A model generated the notes under the pieces. It had not been told where the DNA came from, made no database searches, and saw only the letters and a list, made by a program, of their open reading frames with translations. Of a stretch of DNA of 64,000 nucleotides, positions 41,140 through 58,627 are shown piece after piece. Source of the stretch: an uncultured Candidatus Poseidoniales archaeon. Lineage in GTDB: Archaea; Thermoplasmatota; Poseidoniia; Poseidoniales; Thalassarchaeaceae. Both the position numbers and the translations under genes were made by a program. The number at the start of each line of letters is the position of its first letter. The stretch's first letter is position 1. Location of the stretch: contig CACELO010000001.1 in assembly GCA_902560445.1 (NCBI GenBank), forward strand, positions 106,968 through 170,967. Reading direction: 5' to 3'.

Positions 41140-43497
41140 ATACTCCCCACTGTTGGCAATCTTCTGATTTTACTGGCGATAGTTTCCAGCCTAATTTGGT
41201 GCTTCTCACGATTACCGGCAGGAGAACCTCTAGCAAGACATACCACTTTAGCGGCTCAAGTCGCACCTTGGGTATTCTTGACGACTGCATTCATATTCGA
41301 TTTCGAAGTTTTAGATTTGGTTTCAAGATATGGTGGGGAAGAATTACCACTGCTCTATCGAATATCTGCTGTTTGGGGAGGTAGAGCCGGACCACTTCTG
41401 CTTTGGGCGGCAATAATGGGTACTGTCACTTGGTTCATGTCGGGACGCAATGTCTCGAATTCAGTTGAGATCAGACTAATGCACGGTTGTACCGCTGCGA
41501 TAATTGTAATTTCTTGGATTCTCTCACCTTTTGCAGAGTCAACTGGTTGGAGAGGAACTCTCAATCCATTACTACAAACCGACCTAATGGTAATTCATCC
41601 ACCGGTTGTTTTTGCATATTACTCACTCTGTCTAGCAGTTGCTAGTATAGCTCTTGCCGGGCTTATCAAAGGTCATGAGGCGAGGCGAGTGCACGAAGCC
41701 CAACTACACTGGGCACGTGCTGGATTCCTTATCGGAACCATAGGAATTGGATTAGGTGGATTGTGGGCCTATACAGTACTCGACTGGGGTGGATATTGGG
41801 CTTGGGATCCAGTCGAAACAGGCTCTATTCTGCCTTGGTTCGCGCTATTGATGATTGTACATGCCCGTGCGCGAACCGACTCCGAAAGAGACTCTGCAAT
41901 ACTTGCTTCACCAGCCCTTGGCATGCTCGCTGGTGCGCTTGCAATCCATGCAACATTAGTCACGCGTGCGAATGGAGTATGGGCCTCAGTACACTCTTTC
42001 GTCGGTAATGAAGAAGCAAGAGAATACAACGACCCGTACATAAGAATCGTACAATTATTCAACGATGGTGCAGCTGGTTTGGAAGTAGCAGGATATTTCC
42101 TAATTATGATATCACTTTGTTTTGCAGCTTTCTTGTGGTTAGTAAAACAACAAGAGCAACTACTCGATTCATCTTCAAAGACTTCGATGATAATAGAGAA
42201 TCGTAATGTCTCCATTGCTTTGCTCGTCGCTACCCCTGCATTGGGTATTTGGATGGGTTCAACAGCGATAACTTTGGTCGGAGCAGCACTGATGTTTTTG
42301 CTAATCAAAGGAGACTCTGAGAAACCTCCTGCGGCTTGGGTCTTTGGAGGAGTTTTCCTAATGTTGTTCGCAAGTTGGTCGTGGGCCGCAAGTTTGGAAC
42401 AATCGATTATTGGGATGTTACTTTTCTTGGGCCCATGGTTGATGTCTGCGGAAGAAGAGGAATCACCACTAACAAAATTGTTCAACGATACTTCAGTTCG
42501 CATGAAGGTCGCGAGAGCAATTCCTTGGTATTCTGCTGCCGCCTTCCTTACATTGACCTGGTTATTACTAGCCGCTGAGATAGATGGGACCAGCCTAGCG
42601 GCTCACGAATTCTACGGCTCTCCAATACTAGTCTTGGTAATTCTAGCGATTACAATCTACTCTCTTGGAAAGAGCATCGATGCAAAGCGTGGAAACGCAT
42701 TCATGGCTACTACACTACTCGCCTCGTTACTATTCGCATATTACGCAGAGGAGTTCTCTCTTCCCGGCGATCCTCAACTTATGCTCACAGACAATATCTC
42801 ACGGGGTAGCCTTGCAATGTTCATGCTAACTTGGCTATTCGTGGCTCTACCTCCAACCGCGAAGGTGGTATTCACGATTGGTCGCAAGATATTGCCGAAA
42901 TTACGAGCCGATGGAATAACCGCCAAATCTAATGCAGCCCGTTTGAGATTGATTGGTTCCCATCTTGCACACTTAGGACTCATACTACTTCTCTTAGGAC
43001 ACGTACTTACCACTACCTTGGTAGATCGCGCCGACCCAAGCCATCTTGTAACGCTAGAGAAAGACAACCCTGTAAAATTCAAAGAATACGAACTAACTTT
43101 CAGCGATACTGTCTTGCTAAGTGAGGAAGATCCCGAATACGACTACAAAATAGGTGATGGATTCGCTGGATTTGTTATCGAGGTCACAAAAGACGGAGAG
43201 AAAGTCGACGAAGTGACTCCTGGAATTCTCCGCTTTAGTTGGACAACAACTCGCTCGGAAGTAGATAGAGTGGTCCGTCCAAGCGGAGATATGATATTTA
43301 TTCTCGATCAACAACAGGCAGAAATCAGCCTCACCTCAATGATGCGAGGCGAGACCGATGAAGTTGAAGAAATCCGCGTCACAGTACACGATTTGCGGGG
43401 TTCCCACCTTGTCTGGGCTGGTTGGAGCCTAATCATGTTGGGCGGCCTTGCGGCCCTACTCAGTAGTAGCCCAGTGACCTCCGAAGAAGAGGAATAA
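41140..43497 (+). CDS. ccmF: CcmF/CcsA-family cytochrome c maturation protein; start uncertain (ORF track begins at 41278)
   Basis: PLLYRISAVWGGRAGPLLLWA, YTVLDWGGYWAWDPVETGSILPWFALLM (WWD domain); N-terminal homologous sequence LPTVGNLLILLAIV extends upstream of first canonical start codon. Confidence 0.85.
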   Translation: MLPTVGNLLILLAIVSSLIWCFSRLPAGEPLARHTTLAAQVAPWVFLTTAFIFDFEVLDLVSRYGGEELPLLYRISAVWGGRAGPLLLWAAIMGTVTWFMSGRNVSNSVEIRLMHGCTAAIIVISWILSPFAESTGWRGTLNPLLQTDLMVIHPPVVFAYYSLCLAVASIALAGLIKGHEARRVHEAQLHWARAGFLIGTIGIGLGGLWAYTVLDWGGYWAWDPVETGSILPWFALLMIVHARARTDSERDSAILASPALGMLAGALAIHATLVTRANGVWASVHSFVGNEEAREYNDPYIRIVQLFNDGAAGLEVAGYFLIMISLCFAAFLWLVKQQEQLLDSSSKTSMIIENRNVSIALLVATPALGIWMGSTAITLVGAALMFLLIKGDSEKPPAAWVFGGVFLMLFASWSWAASLEQSIIGMLLFLGPWLMSAEEEESPLTKLFNDTSVRMKVARAIPWYSAAAFLTLTWLLLAAEIDGTSLAAHEFYGSPILVLVILAITIYSLGKSIDAKRGNAFMATTLLASLLFAYYAEEFSLPGDPQLMLTDNISRGSLAMFMLTWLFVALPPTAKVVFTIGRKILPKLRADGITAKSNAARLRLIGSHLAHLGLILLLLGHVLTTTLVDRADPSHLVTLEKDNPVKFKEYELTFSDTVLLSEEDPEYDYKIGDGFAGFVIEVTKDGEKVDEVTPGILRFSWTTTRSEVDRVVRPSGDMIFILDQQQAEISLTSMMRGETDEVEEIRVTVHDLRGSHLVWAGWSLIMLGGLAALLSSSPVTSEEEE

Positions 43498-52948: not shown

Positions 52949-55606
52949 ATGCAGCGTTCACGCCGCATGGTAGCGCTTGTTGTGCTTTTTATGCTATTGT
53001 TATCAAGCCAAGTTGCAATAGCCAATAGCAATGGCAAGTTCAATTCTTCCAGTGGCTGTAATTGCCATGGGGGTTCAGGAGCTTCCCCCACTCCCTCACA
53101 TAACTTTCCTTCTTCTTATTCGCCGGGTCAAACCTATTCTCTGAGTATTGGGATGAATGGTGGAGTCTCCGGTTCAGAGGGAGGTTTCAATCTCCAAGTT
53201 TCAAGTGGGACGCTTTCAACGGGCGTAGGCATTATGAACACTCAAGTAAACTCAGCAGGAAATCAGGCAACTCACCAATTCCCTGACTATAGAAGCTGGT
53301 CTCTAGAATGGACAGCACCTTCATCTGGAAGCGGGACAGTCACCTTCTCTCTAGCAGTCTTAGCCGCAAATGGAAATGGGGCAAATTCTGGAGATGGGTG
53401 GGGTACCGTATCATTCCAATCTACTGAGAGTTCTGGTTCTACCAATACTCCTCCGGAAGCTCAATCTGTGATTTTTGTTCCCAGTGAACCAACCCGTGGT
53501 ACTGGTCTTGCGATAGATTACGCCTACTATGATGCGGATGGAGATTCGGAACAGGGTACCCAAATCCGTTGGAAGGTAAATGGCAATAATGTAGGGTCTC
53601 TGGATGACCAAACATCAGTATCTCAGACCTGGCTTGCCAAAGGGGACGAATGGACCTGTACTGTTACTGTAAAAGATGGCTTAGACCAGGGAAATCCAAT
53701 TACAGTTGGACCAGTTACAATAGACAATACACTTCCAATAGCGAGAAATCTTGAACTTACTCCTGAGAATCCAATTGATACTGATCAACTAGAGCTAGAC
53801 TATGAGTACTTTGACCTCGACAGTGAACCACAACAGGGAACTGAGATTCGCTGGTATCTGGATGGTGCCAGAATACCTGAGTTGGATAATGAGGACAGGG
53901 TCACTCCACTGATGATTCGTAGCGGAGATCAATGGGAGGCCTCAGTCAAACCTCATGATGGTGATGAGTTTGGAGAAATCGTGTATACAGGAGTTGTAGT
54001 GATTGGTTCTTCGAATAATCCACCTGTTGCCACAGTGTACGTTTCTCCGGTTGGTAATGCTCGTACTGACGACGCATTAGTGGTTAACGTAGGATGGACA
54101 GACCCAGATGGCGATACGATTCAATCTACAGAGATTCGTTGGTTTAGAGACGGTACCCAAGTATCCGCCTATAATGACCTAACTGCGGTTCTTTCTGAAT
54201 CAACCTCTAAGGGTGAAACTTGGAACGCCAGAGTAAGGGTCAGTGATGGCTTATTGTGGTCTTCTTGGGTTGAAAGTGAGGACTTGATAATTCTCAATAC
54301 TCCTCCTAAAGTCACTTCGATTGAGATGTTGCCTTCAGGGAAACTAACCACCTCAATGAATCTCAGTGTTATTTGGGAACAAAGCGACGTCGACGGAGAC
54401 TCAGAGACAAATAGCCAAATTCGTTGGTGGGTTGATGGTGAATGGATAAGAGAATACGACGGAATGACTGAGATTCCAGCCTCTGAGACTGTTAGAGATC
54501 AGAGTTGGTCTGTTCAGGTTGTTCCCGGCGACGGAGATGACTTAGGAACCTCAATGAAAACCTCCTCAAGACAGATTGAGAATGGGGCTCCCGGTAACAT
54601 GCAGGTCCTTCTTGGAAATGGCGAAAGTGGATTTACAGGAGAAGCAAGTGAAATGCCCTCTCCTCCAACATTACCTGCAGACGCTCTAAACACATTAGTG
54701 GTTCACGCTACGGCTATAGACCTAGATGGAGAACCAGTTTCATACGATATTTCTTGGTCTCGAAACGGTTTCTCCGTACCAGACTTAGAGGGCGCTTGGA
54801 TAATAACAACAGATAGATTAGAACCGGGGCAAACTTGGGCAGCGACTGTTACAGCAAGTGATCCGTGGGGATTATCGACAATATTAGTAGCAGAAATCGA
54901 AATCGCTAACGTTCCACCCACGGCAATGTTCTCGACATCTCCTGAACCTCCTATTGCTGGCGCATTTATCACACTCGATAGTTCGATGTCAATAGATCTT
55001 GATGGAGAAATTATCCATTACATGTGGGATGTAAATGGAGACAGTTTAACCGGCGAGATCGTCAATGTACAGTTGGGGACAGGATCTCATTCTGTAATGC
55101 TAACCGTCGTAGATGATATGGGAGAAACTGGTATCAGTATGTCATACATCACATTTGGAGATGTGACCACGGTAAGTGGCCTTACTGCGACACTCTCTGG
55201 TACTAAAGTGGATTTATCCTGGGAATGGACGGAGGGAGAAACTAATTTCCAGATTTATCGATCAAGTAGTCCCTTCACCTCGTCAGGGCACGATGCAAAT
55301 GGAGAAGCACTGCTAACCGACCTAGAAGCGGTTGGAGAGACAACTGAGTTATTTTGGAGTGAGACTGCTCCTGTTGCTTCTAACCTCTATTATGTAGTAA
55401 CTGCTGAGGTTGTAGGACTCGAAGTTTTGTGGCTATTTGAAATGGAAAATACCGCGAGTGTAGATGCTTCTGAGGCTCCTAAATCGATTGATATCGAACC
55501 TACAGGATCAATTTCCTCGATGTCTTTACCAATGACGATAATTATGCTACTGGTGGGTCTTGTGAGTATCGGAATAACCGTTTTTGGTAGAAGGAGGGAT
55601 GCCTGA
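52949..55606 (+). CDS. Large surface protein: CNCH-containing choice-of-anchor-like domain, multiple Ig/PKD-like repeats, C-terminal TM (ORF track start 52808)
   Basis: Signal MQRSRRMVALVVLFMLLLSSQVAIANS, GCNCHGGSG, PGQTYSLSI...WTAPSSGSGTVTFSLAVLAANGNG, repeated DxDGDxxxxTQIRWxxDG, PKD-like domain, C-terminal TM. Confidence 0.85.
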   Translation: MQRSRRMVALVVLFMLLLSSQVAIANSNGKFNSSSGCNCHGGSGASPTPSHNFPSSYSPGQTYSLSIGMNGGVSGSEGGFNLQVSSGTLSTGVGIMNTQVNSAGNQATHQFPDYRSWSLEWTAPSSGSGTVTFSLAVLAANGNGANSGDGWGTVSFQSTESSGSTNTPPEAQSVIFVPSEPTRGTGLAIDYAYYDADGDSEQGTQIRWKVNGNNVGSLDDQTSVSQTWLAKGDEWTCTVTVKDGLDQGNPITVGPVTIDNTLPIARNLELTPENPIDTDQLELDYEYFDLDSEPQQGTEIRWYLDGARIPELDNEDRVTPLMIRSGDQWEASVKPHDGDEFGEIVYTGVVVIGSSNNPPVATVYVSPVGNARTDDALVVNVGWTDPDGDTIQSTEIRWFRDGTQVSAYNDLTAVLSESTSKGETWNARVRVSDGLLWSSWVESEDLIILNTPPKVTSIEMLPSGKLTTSMNLSVIWEQSDVDGDSETNSQIRWWVDGEWIREYDGMTEIPASETVRDQSWSVQVVPGDGDDLGTSMKTSSRQIENGAPGNMQVLLGNGESGFTGEASEMPSPPTLPADALNTLVVHATAIDLDGEPVSYDISWSRNGFSVPDLEGAWIITTDRLEPGQTWAATVTASDPWGLSTILVAEIEIANVPPTAMFSTSPEPPIAGAFITLDSSMSIDLDGEIIHYMWDVNGDSLTGEIVNVQLGTGSHSVMLTVVDDMGETGISMSYITFGDVTTVSGLTATLSGTKVDLSWEWTEGETNFQIYRSSSPFTSSGHDANGEALLTDLEAVGETTELFWSETAPVASNLYYVVTAEVVGLEVLWLFEMENTASVDASEAPKSIDIEPTGSISSMSLPMTIIMLLVGLVSIGITVFGRRRDA

Positions 55607-56733
55607 TGCGCGGTAGAATTATCGCTATTGCAACAATTGCTCTAGTCCTAATTTCCACGCAAGGTACGGTGGCAAATCCTGGCGGTAACGGCGATGGAAA
55701 CAGAGACTTTGTTTGTGGTGGGTCTTGTCATGGAGACCCTACTCTGAGTGCCCCTTCCACGGCAACGATTTCGATAACATCTGGAAATACTGCATTCACA
55801 GGAACTGCCTATCAATTCGATACAACAATTGAGATTGACATGATTTCACATTCGAGAATACTGGGTGTATTCCTTCTTTCCTCGACTAATGGAAATGGAG
55901 ATAATCCTGAAGATCATGGTTGGAATATTATTCAGGATCCATCAGGAACGAATGTAAACTATGTTGAAGTCATAGTTCCAACAAATGGTGCTGTTAGCCT
56001 AAGTTGGGTTCTTACAGCACCCGAAGAAGTCGGCGATGGAGATCTAATCGTAGCTATTCATCACGGAGCTGGATACGAAAATCTTGCCTATCTGGGAGTA
56101 TCGGAATCACATTCGATTTCAATTAATCCTGTACCTGCAAACCTACCTGGTTTTGCCCTCGATTGGATTGCACCAAATTACCGAGTTACGGGCGATACAT
56201 CTCCGGTAAGTGTGCTAACTCAAAATACCACAGAAATTTCTGTTGAATGGAAATTGGAAGGAGAATCGGTTTCCCATCCTGCAACTGTTGAAGCAGGAAC
56301 CGATGATGAATGGTTAGTACACTTACCTGCCACCATGGGGGATGGAAGAATAGTCTATCAGGTAACCACTTCTAACGGAGAGTTCGATGTTATTCAGCCT
56401 TGGCTGACGATGGGGACCATTCCGCCCGAATTTGATGGTAATTTGATGGGGGCTAGAGCCCAAGGCTTTGCAGGTGCGTTCATCATAATCGCACTTCTGG
56501 TGAGTCTCCAGGGATTGTTACAACCACCCCGAAGAAAGAACGATTTGGACCAAACAAAAGAAGCGGAGGTAGCCGAGGAAACACCTCCCGAATCAGTAGT
56601 TGATAAACCAACATTCGATGAAGATGCGGCATATCGAGCACGTCTTCTGAAGTACGATGAACACCCTGGTTTACTTTGGGATCCGGTTGATGAAGAATGG
56701 GTTGACGATCCGAATTACGAAGGTGATGAGTAA
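55606..56733 (+). CDS. Membrane-anchored protein with CGGSCH motif
   Basis: Signal peptide, NRDFVCGGSCHGDPTLS, TM near residue 290, acidic cytoplasmic-like tail; start overlaps previous stop (TGATG). Confidence 0.8.
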   Translation: MRGRIIAIATIALVLISTQGTVANPGGNGDGNRDFVCGGSCHGDPTLSAPSTATISITSGNTAFTGTAYQFDTTIEIDMISHSRILGVFLLSSTNGNGDNPEDHGWNIIQDPSGTNVNYVEVIVPTNGAVSLSWVLTAPEEVGDGDLIVAIHHGAGYENLAYLGVSESHSISINPVPANLPGFALDWIAPNYRVTGDTSPVSVLTQNTTEISVEWKLEGESVSHPATVEAGTDDEWLVHLPATMGDGRIVYQVTTSNGEFDVIQPWLTMGTIPPEFDGNLMGARAQGFAGAFIIIALLVSLQGLLQPPRRKNDLDQTKEAEVAEETPPESVVDKPTFDEDAAYRARLLKYDEHPGLLWDPVDEEWVDDPNYEGDE

Positions 56734-57308
56734 TGTTCTCTCAGACCTTACATCACCTAGTAGTTGGTCTAACAACAGGCATTGCTACTCTCGCTTGTCT
56801 ATGTGCCATAGCCGCTTGGGTATCGAATTACTTTGTAGGGGCCAAGAATGCTCGCGCTCATCTCGACACTGCATCCTACATTGCCGCAATCGCAACACTC
56901 CCTTTGCTTCCTATCGCTGTACTTTCCGGTACAATGTCAATGTCCGATCCAGCTAGTGACGCAATGAGTTACAACAAATTCCTCTTTGCTGGATTAACAA
57001 CCGGATTCCTTGCTTCCATGGTAATCGGACGCTGGAGATTTGGTCCAGGAGTTTGGAATGATTCTAGGCTTGCACTATTGCAAGCAATTTCAGCAATTGG
57101 AGCACTTGCAAGCATTACTGTTCTGGGATCAATTGGGGCAAAGATGACGCTTGGAGAATCGACGATGGATATCCTACCCTTTTGGCCAGCCTTTGACGAT
57201 TCGATAGTTGTAAATGGATGGTTTTCTCTAGTTCTACTAATCATAGGGCTGGTCGCAGTGGTTGCGGCATTCATGCTTGGTCCTAAGGTAGAACGTTTAC
57301 CTGAGTGA
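56733..57308 (+). CDS. Polytopic membrane protein, about 5 TM
   Basis: MFSQTLHHLVVGLTTGIATLACLCAIAAWV...; start overlaps previous stop (TAATG). Confidence 0.8.
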   Translation: MFSQTLHHLVVGLTTGIATLACLCAIAAWVSNYFVGAKNARAHLDTASYIAAIATLPLLPIAVLSGTMSMSDPASDAMSYNKFLFAGLTTGFLASMVIGRWRFGPGVWNDSRLALLQAISAIGALASITVLGSIGAKMTLGESTMDILPFWPAFDDSIVVNGWFSLVLLIIGLVAVVAAFMLGPKVERLPE

Positions 57309-57313
57309 TAGAA

Positions 57314-58627
57314 TCAGTAACACTGCTGTCGGTCTTCAGACCATGTTCCACCGTTTGCCTCGCACTCCTCTTGAGTAGTAGCTGATTCGTTGGATTCGTC
57401 CTCTACTGGTTCCTGATCAGAATCTCCGGAATCATCACGGTCCTTGTCCTTGTTACAGTCCCTGTCGTACTCTGGCCAGACGCAGGCTGATGCATCTCCG
57501 TCGGCGACCCACTCACCACCTCTCTCCTCGCAGACCTCCTGAGGCACCTCGAGGTCGGCCATTATCCTAATCTCCATGTCGAATTCCTCGCGGTCCTCCA
57601 TCTCTGCAGGGCCACCGAACACAGCATCACTAAGCCTCTCCATGAGGCCTCTCCTGTCGTCTTTATCACGATGGCACTTCTCCCCGCCCGCGCATTTGGC
57701 ATGGCGGTGGTGCTTCTCTGTCATCTCCTCGTATACTGATGTGATGGCGGATGCTTCCGCAGTGCAGGCTTCGTTCTCCAGGCAGTATACGATGGCGGTG
57801 GACGCGGCCTCGAGCATGGATGCTTTGTCCTCTGAGTACCTCATTTTTCTCTCGTCGTCCCAGTCGTGCCAGTCCCCGTGTTCCATACGTGCGTGGCACC
57901 ACTCCTCCTTCTCTTCTGACCAGACTTCATCTGTTCTGCAGTCGAACCTTACTTCATCTTCATCTGGGCAGTCGTAGTGCACGACCCCATCCTTTTCCCA
58001 GAGACATATCCTTTCTTCGGATTCGGTTACGCAGACCTGTCTGTCCTCGTACCATTCTCCTCCGGCCGCTTCGCAGTCCTCTTGCGTCATCTCGTCATCG
58101 TCTGCTGGATTGGGGTCTGTCCTCATCCGGACCTCCTCCATTATGAGCTCGTCCTGAGACTCGGCATCGATTTTGTGCTGCATCTCAGCATGCTTATCCT
58201 CCATGTTGTCAATCATCTCTTGGAGTTGTTCTGAGTCCGCCTCGCAGGCTGTATCCTCCAAGCAGAACCTAAGAGCGATGATGAGTTCCTCGCCGGCTGC
58301 TATCCTCTGCTTGAGGTGCTCAACCCTGTCGTCCATCCTGTCGTCCATCCTGTCGCTCATCATGCTGCGGATGAAGTCCTTGGCGCCCTTCTTCATTCGA
58401 CTGTCCTCGGACTTCCTCTCGTCCCAGTCCTCGTCGTCCGTGGCGTCATCGACCACTCCGGCCATCCAGTCATCCTCTGCATACTCTGGTGCTGCAAACT
58501 CTTCGAGCCCTGCGGCCATGGACGAGCTTGCCAGTAAGGTGAATATTGCTAGGGCTAGGACGCCCCTGCTCATCGGTGATACATTCTTGTCCCGTACCTT
58601 GTTATCTTTCGATTCATCATGGATCAT
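57314..58627 (-). CDS. Secreted acidic Cys-motif protein (repeated CExxGGxWxxDxxxC)
   Basis: Signal LALAIFTLLASSSMAAG; CEAAGGEWYEDRQVC, CEERGGEWVADGDASAC, CEANGGTWSEDRQQC; region visibly GC-richer than neighbours. Confidence 0.82.
   Translation of the reverse strand: MIHDESKDNKVRDKNVSPMSRGVLALAIFTLLASSSMAAGLEEFAAPEYAEDDWMAGVVDDATDDEDWDERKSEDSRMKKGAKDFIRSMMSDRMDDRMDDRVEHLKQRIAAGEELIIALRFCLEDTACEADSEQLQEMIDNMEDKHAEMQHKIDAESQDELIMEEVRMRTDPNPADDDEMTQEDCEAAGGEWYEDRQVCVTESEERICLWEKDGVVHYDCPDEDEVRFDCRTDEVWSEEKEEWCHARMEHGDWHDWDDERKMRYSEDKASMLEAASTAIVYCLENEACTAEASAITSVYEEMTEKHHRHAKCAGGEKCHRDKDDRRGLMERLSDAVFGGPAEMEDREEFDMEIRIMADLEVPQEVCEERGGEWVADGDASACVWPEYDRDCNKDKDRDDSGDSDQEPVEDESNESATTQEECEANGGTWSEDRQQCY
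58325..58360. repeat. 12-bp tandem repeat (cctgtcgtccat x3, last copy divergent) encoding RMDD/RMDD
   Basis: Direct reading of the sequence. Confidence 0.85.

Follow-up and report, generated by a model that had tools for sequence, protein, structure and literature searches.

In caa3-type oxidases the heme c domain is usually carried by subunit II. The published respiratory reconstructions of the Candidatus Poseidoniales, an archaeal group among the most abundant in the surface oceans, leave a gap in the respiratory chain: cytochrome b and Rieske proteins are present but a cytochrome c1 is not, and no known cytochrome c goes with the oxidase. The group has been described as possessing cytochrome b and Rieske without a canonical bc1 complex (PMC6336850), and a published survey found no PF00034 or PF01322 cytochrome c in any Thermoplasmatota genome (PMC9287336). 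Furthermore, an earlier survey of archaeal cytochromes looked for the CxxCH motif only (PMC4429474). In this paper, we describe a three-gene membrane locus, P1-P2-P3, in a 64,000-nucleotide stretch of DNA from an uncultured Candidatus Poseidoniales archaeon (hereafter the window), whose first two products bear the Cys/His motifs CNCH and CGGSCH close to their N-termini, and we compare the domain that carries these motifs with its relatives in respiratory genes of the same clade and in bacteria. The features of the locus are as follows, with positions given in the window.

P1, 52949-55606, + strand: predicted exported protein of 885 amino acids, with a choice-of-anchor V/Reeler-like N-domain bearing CNCH, Ig/PKD-like repeats and a C-terminal transmembrane segment.
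CNCH of P1 (C37-N-C39-H40), 53057-53068, + strand: residues 37-40, a proposed noncanonical heme c site.
H109 of P1, 53273-53275, + strand: candidate second axial ligand, invariant in P1 domains.
P2, 55606-56733, + strand: predicted exported protein of 375 amino acids, with a diverged choice-of-anchor V-like domain bearing CGGSCH and a second beta domain.
CGGSCH of P2 (C37-x3-C41-H42), 55714-55731, + strand: residues 37-42, a proposed Cx3CH heme c site.
H153 of P2, 56062-56064, + strand: candidate second ligand at another place than H109 of P1, invariant in 40 orthologs.
Transmembrane helix of P2, about 56443-56520, + strand: the single such helix, followed by a C-terminal tail.
P3, 56733-57308, + strand: membrane protein of 191 amino acids with about five transmembrane segments, the proposed membrane partner of P1 and P2.

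Judging from sequence and gene context, we propose, with a probability of roughly 0.6, that P1 and P2 are monoheme cytochromes of the c type, anchored in the membrane, with noncanonical motifs on a Reeler-like beta-sandwich, and that P3 is their membrane partner. The domain itself is probably a cytochrome c that has been overlooked and whose heme motif is unusual. The initial annotation had left the choice between an atypical heme c site and another metal site; we favour the former, and the metal option less so, because the CxCH domain is fused to COX1 and also stands at the cytochrome c1 position, because the Ccm genes for cytochrome c maturation are present throughout the clade and CcmE follows the distribution of the domain over the phylum, and because the bacterial relatives of the domain mostly carry the canonical CxxCH.

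The most telling evidence comes from outside the window. The motif is not confined to the three-gene module: the CxCH domain is a respiratory domain found clade-wide, both fused to COX1 and encoded beside cytochrome b and Rieske genes. Two representatives are as follows.

CxCH domain-COX1 fusion of the window's own genome, L104:4478-6805 (G000:C1): 775 amino acids, with an N-terminal signal peptide.
Short CxCH copy with a C-terminal membrane segment, L245:3806-4651 (G036:963806-964651): beside Rieske-like and cytochrome b genes.

The fusion protein matches COX1 at 2.8e-141 over residues 237-689, its gene stands between COX2 and COX3 with COX4 as a further neighbour, and the CuA motif of COX2 is intact. 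Likewise, in the relative G036 a CxCH protein of 777 amino acids lies between COX2 and COX3 and runs on into COX1, and at least 39 of the 55 COX1 frames in the relatives share their frame with the domain, among the matches listed. The arrangement thus resembles that of the caa3-type oxidases in that a CuA-type oxidase bears a putative heme c domain as a fusion, but it differs in that the fusion is at the N-terminus of subunit I and the domain does not have the class I cytochrome c fold. A second, shorter COX1 of the fused type (726-763 amino acids), adjoined by a separate short CxCH gene, was also seen in three relatives (G003:C101:1030-3114, G014:C1:34740-37461 and G032:C44:66719-69433).

As counted from coordinates, at least 40 of 56 genomes have the short copy on the strand of cytochrome b, 2,353-2,758 bases upstream of it, the remaining cytochrome b genes being at contig ends or without the domain among the matches listed. 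In G036, the cytochrome b gene beside it gives a match of 8.6e-42. All seven sampled loci have a Rieske-like gene and a gene for a 148-amino-acid protein between the short copy and cytochrome b; the Rieske assignment is based on the motifs CTHLCC, CICHSSRFD and RRxFL, Pfam giving no match at 0.01. The window's genome has its cytochrome b on a contig that starts just upstream of the gene, so its upstream arrangement is taken from the relatives. With its signal peptide, N-terminal heme-like motif, beta-sandwich, C-terminal anchor and position beside cytochrome b and Rieske genes, the short copy is similar to cytochromes f and c1. It differs from them in carrying CxCH instead of CxxCH, and neither cytochrome f nor c1 is found among the top 50 matches of a Foldseek search of the PDB with the P1 domain model; the resemblance would be convergent at most. 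Also beside cytochrome b in G036 is a 942-amino-acid protein (958782-961607, L244/L245); as read by eye, it seems to be a fusion of the C-terminal portion of a cytochrome b with an iron-sulfur portion of the CCG-motif (HdrD-like) kind, and the stretch of it that was scanned gave no Pfam match.

It was a survey of the near-complete G036 (2.0 of 2.06 Mb, 97%) that gave the decisive lead. Exported proteins in which a CxnCH motif stands close to the N-terminus comprise five CxCH proteins, all of which have the choice-of-anchor V-type domain, the P2 ortholog with Cx3CH, and one other, which is a thioredoxin-like protein with CSGCH. No exported canonical CxxCH cytochrome was found when all the remaining CxxCH frames in these 2.0 Mb were inspected. 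To the broader proposal that, in this order, conventional cytochromes c have given way to a monoheme CxCH cytochrome of Reeler fold with a spacing of one residue, serving as the heme c subunit of complex III, as the N-domain of COX1 and as a surface branch in P1-P2-P3, and missed by CxxCH-only surveys, we would give an even chance.

The motifs in the module itself are conserved. As the initial annotation had it, they come just after the signal peptide, an N-terminal hydrophobic segment directly preceding the motif in P1 and P2 orthologs; with such signal-peptide-like N-termini, P1 and P2 are predicted to be exported, as a c-type cytochrome would be. Neither has the canonical CxxCH of c-type cytochromes. 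Among the P1 orthologs with a readable N-terminus, 37 of 39 have CxCH and 2 of 39 have Cx4CH (CGGGYCH), while C[GA]G[SA]CH (Cx3CH) is present in all 43 P2 orthologs. The invariant residues include C37, C39, H40 and H109 in P1 domains (n=37), the only two cysteines of the P1 domain being those of the motif, and C37, C41, H42 and H153 in P2 orthologs (n=40). Orthologs lacking the Cys/His residues, which would speak against a cofactor site, were looked for across the P1 and P2 orthologs and none was found. A Rieske-like iron-sulfur site in P1 was considered and rejected, as CxCH resembles one half-site only and the domain has no other Cys that could complete the pair of half-sites (CxH and CxxH) of a Rieske protein. 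A further CxCH paralog of 327 amino acids (G036:1301299-1302279), located near transhydrogenase-like, TatC-like and CcmE genes, is without the second conserved His.

The machinery for attaching heme c is encoded both in the window and elsewhere in the same genome.

CcmF, 41278-43497, + strand: System I heme lyase, about 9.5 kb upstream of P1 and outside its operon.
CcmE of the window's genome, G000:C9:22922.

The CcmF-like gene noted earlier upstream of the module is a real CcmF, with a PF01578 match of 9.9e-25, a TIGR00353 match of 6.1e-38 that is below that model's cut-off, and the WWD signature WGGYWAWDPVETGSILPW; its closeness to the module is limited to one family and is not operonic. CcmF/CcmC are present in all 57 relatives and CcmE in 44 of the 57. 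CcmE in the window's genome and others has TGCPSKY or SCPSKY and is thus of the CxxxY type, which is needed for heme attachment in Methanosarcina (PMC9084895). The system as a whole, with its WWD CcmF, CcmC and CxxxY-type CcmE (TGCPSKY), resembles archaeal System I (Ccm), but its apparent substrates here are CxCH and Cx3CH rather than CxxCH. Of 118 genomes sampled across the phylum, 33 have both the domain and CcmE, 6 the domain alone, 6 CcmE alone and 73 neither of the two. Among those outside the order, CcmE is present in 8 of the 10 that have the domain versus 6 of the 79 that do not (Fisher p 1.7e-6, uncorrected for the relatedness of the genomes).

The family extends well beyond the archaea. 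We have scanned bacterial and archaeal genomes with patterns from the WSFxWTA and VTFYxAGN blocks, the Cys motif being excluded; the bait of the bacterial search was a consensus composed for the purpose and used as bait only, and all the sequences reported are from the genome collection. In agreement with the earlier claim that bacterial relatives carry CxxCH, 58 of the 81 do, the rest having Cx4CH (17), Cx3CH (5) and Cx5CH (1), and the archaeal motifs are noncanonical variants, with CxCH in all 30 of the archaeal copies that were sampled from the various paralogs. In a tree, archaeal and bacterial domains form separate groups (100/99); all the archaeal rows have a spacing of 1 except one, and this lone Cx4CH protein nests within the archaeal CxCH clade. 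A planctomycete pair (L123/L126) is near-identical and has CNDGCH versus CNDTGCH, i.e. a spacing of 3 versus 4. Throughout 78 archaeal and bacterial domains, the C, C and H are invariant, the second His (H109 of P1) is at least 90% conserved, and the Cys spacing across the family ranges from 1 to 5. Covalent attachment of heme would be compatible with a spacing that varies while the C, C and H stay fixed.

A metal site of flexible spacing may suit this pattern as well, and the main rival explanation, which we hold to be unlikely, is that the Cys/Cys/His(/His) set is a site for copper or another metal, making the domain a copper electron carrier in the place that blue-copper proteins take in sister lineages. 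The Ig-like beta-sandwich fold would fit such a carrier, and the Angelarchaeales, which are related Thermoplasmatota, have a plastocyanin-like protein upstream of Rieske and no cytochrome c was found in them (PMC9038741). Copper, however, would leave the co-occurrence of the domain with CcmE across the phylum unexplained, as well as the presence of CcmF/C/E with no other evident substrate; in addition, most bacterial relatives have the canonical CxxCH, and the invariant residues include no Met. Heme c is accordingly the cofactor that we prefer for the domain. The genes adjoining the bacterial homologs showed no consistent partner in their Pfam content, the commonest being multicopper oxidases (5 of 84).

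An anchor-domain search with a hidden Markov model, which had been suggested as a check, identified the N-domain of P1 as choice-of-anchor V: residues 10-155 match NF041895 at 6.8e-28, with 97.6 bits against a curated cut-off of 42. P1 shares with this family the place of the motif and the GGF, W and WTAP blocks; it differs in that the bacterial members mostly have CxxCH and the archaeal ones CxCH, and the NCBI name mentions neither heme nor respiration. P2 of the window gives no match to NF041895, while 17 of 40 P2 orthologs match it at E <= 0.1, the best at 6.4e-8. Comparison of the P1 and P2 family profiles (hhalign) gave 96.8% with an E of 2.2e-10; the two N-domains are homologous and therefore belong to a single domain family that occurs with two Cys spacings. 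For the P1 domain, an AlphaFold2 model built from 78 sequences has a mean predicted local distance difference test score (pLDDT) of 84.3, and that of P2 has 82.7. The best PDB match of the P1 domain model is the Reeler domain of F-spondin (3coo, 1.2e-5), Reeler matches (3coo, 2zot, 2zou) ranging from 1.2e-5 to 2.2e-4; Pfam Reeler (PF02014) is matched by 40 of 78 family members, although the window's P1 domain itself gives no Pfam match. The N-domain of P1 is thus a choice-of-anchor V domain whose fold is probably Reeler-like, and that of P2 is a diverged relative. The fold search with the whole P2 model returned generic tandem Ig matches only, the PDB search with the P2 sequence no significant match, and a tblastn search of plasmids with the P1 domain no match.

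Domains of the Reeler and choice-of-anchor V kinds are known to be extracellular modules, and to our knowledge the F-spondin Reeler structures are not heme proteins. One might then read the motif as a structural disulfide of a cofactor-free anchoring or adhesion module, P1-P2-P3 being a cell-surface structure, as the Ig/PKD repeats of P1 (PKD_4 and BiPBP_C matches in Pfam, followed by a hydrophobic C-terminal segment by sequence reading) and the heme-free Reeler domains as best Foldseek matches would suggest. This reading is quite improbable in our estimation: a CxC disulfide would be strained and the invariance of the His that follows would have no reason, and the COX1 fusion and the position beside cytochrome b and Rieske are hard to explain by adhesion.

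The three open reading frames claimed for the locus and both their start/stop overlaps are present in the window, i.e. TGATG at 55604-55608 (P1/P2) and TAATG at 56731-56735 (P2/P3), each overlap being of one base; across the relatives the overlap is kept in part only, for P1/P2 in 23 of 42 pairs and for P2/P3 in 38 of 43. P1 and P2 are adjacent in 43 of the 59 genomes searched, which belong to two families of the order, and a profile search found P3 directly 3' of P2 in 41 of these 43 loci. The conservation of P1-P2 is beyond chance. In one family the flanks are kept on both sides, with a 3-hydroxyacyl-CoA dehydrogenase-type gene and a glycosyltransferase-type gene; the unit is P1-P2-P3, because the second family keeps only these three genes together. 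The invariant residues of P3 are H7, D45, N81, K82 and R100, so that of the N-terminal His pair pointed out earlier the first (H7) is conserved and the second is not. No significant Pfam match was obtained among the P3 members searched; DUF2231 was matched by 2 of 28 members, with a best E of 0.053, which is below significance.

The module has no respiratory genes adjoining it, which raises a third alternative: that the respiratory paralogs carry heme c while P1-P2-P3 is non-respiratory, serving in heme or metal capture, sensing or surface redox repair, any heme in it not being for electron transfer. The single invariant His in P3 and the differing spacing and second His of P2 would agree with this. 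We nevertheless consider it very unlikely, given that the motif and second His of P1 are the same as in the respiratory copies and that the constant three-gene synteny points to one complex. In our preferred reading, this would be a surface redox complex.

Several points weigh against heme c, besides the plastocyanin-like protein of the Angelarchaeales. That any family member carries heme is something we infer, and we know of no case in which CxCH is an established heme c motif. The E. coli Ccm system reportedly accepts CxnCH with n = 2-6, a range outside which CxCH falls. The best Foldseek matches of the P1 domain are heme-free, and both AlphaFold2 models have only moderate confidence around the N-terminal motif. 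The second His is absent in the 327-amino-acid paralog and is placed elsewhere in P2, and P3 has one invariant His and fits no family that is recognised. In six genomes, of which four are from the order, the domain is present but CcmE gives no match, and this gap must be assumed to reflect gene loss, divergence or incompleteness. A review of System I holds that attachment goes wrong with nonphysiological Cys spacing (PMC3601427), and in the literature CxCH as a natural heme motif was found only as a regular expression in a multiheme search pipeline (PMC11218250).

Conservation, homology, gene context and the presence of the Ccm genes are observed; the heme binding, ligands, direction of electron flow and role of P3 that we infer would combine as follows. 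The clade's System I (CcmC, CxxxY-type CcmE and CcmF) would attach heme outside the membrane, at CxCH in P1 and Cx3CH in P2. The proximal ligand would be the His after the second Cys, and the distal one likely H109 in P1 and H153 in P2. At CxCH, a thioether bond might perhaps be formed only to the Cys next to the His; single-bond cytochromes occur in some protists. The CxCH domain could then act as the general electron carrier of the clade, accepting electrons from the Rieske protein of complex III and passing them on to the oxidase at its CuA site, and P1-P2-P3 would be a third, surface-exposed branch of its use, in which P3 may swap electrons with the membrane pool, P2 may relay them, and P1 may bear the heme domain outward on its Ig/PKD stalk.

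Should the CxCH domain prove to carry heme c, the gap in the respiratory reconstructions would be filled, and a new heme attachment motif and a new cytochrome fold class would be added; cytochrome counts in archaea that are based on CxxCH would be underestimates. It would also raise the biochemical question of how a System I synthase could attach heme to CxCH, and P1-P2-P3 would hint at possible cell-surface electron exchange in uncultured plankton.

A few minor observations were made as well. The neighbouring gene at 57314-58627, directly downstream of the module on the opposite strand, encodes an acidic, Cys-containing, exported-looking protein; it was ruled out as a part of the module, being absent from all 43 related loci. 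The genomes of anammox bacteria (Kuenenia, Brocadia) also carry the domain. Finally, the C-terminal tail of P2 (window 56620-56715, GLLWDPVDEEWVDDP) is similar to a segment found in proteins of about 1,420-1,500 amino acids in the same genomes (G000:C4:71071 and others), and is possibly a shared cytoplasmic motif.

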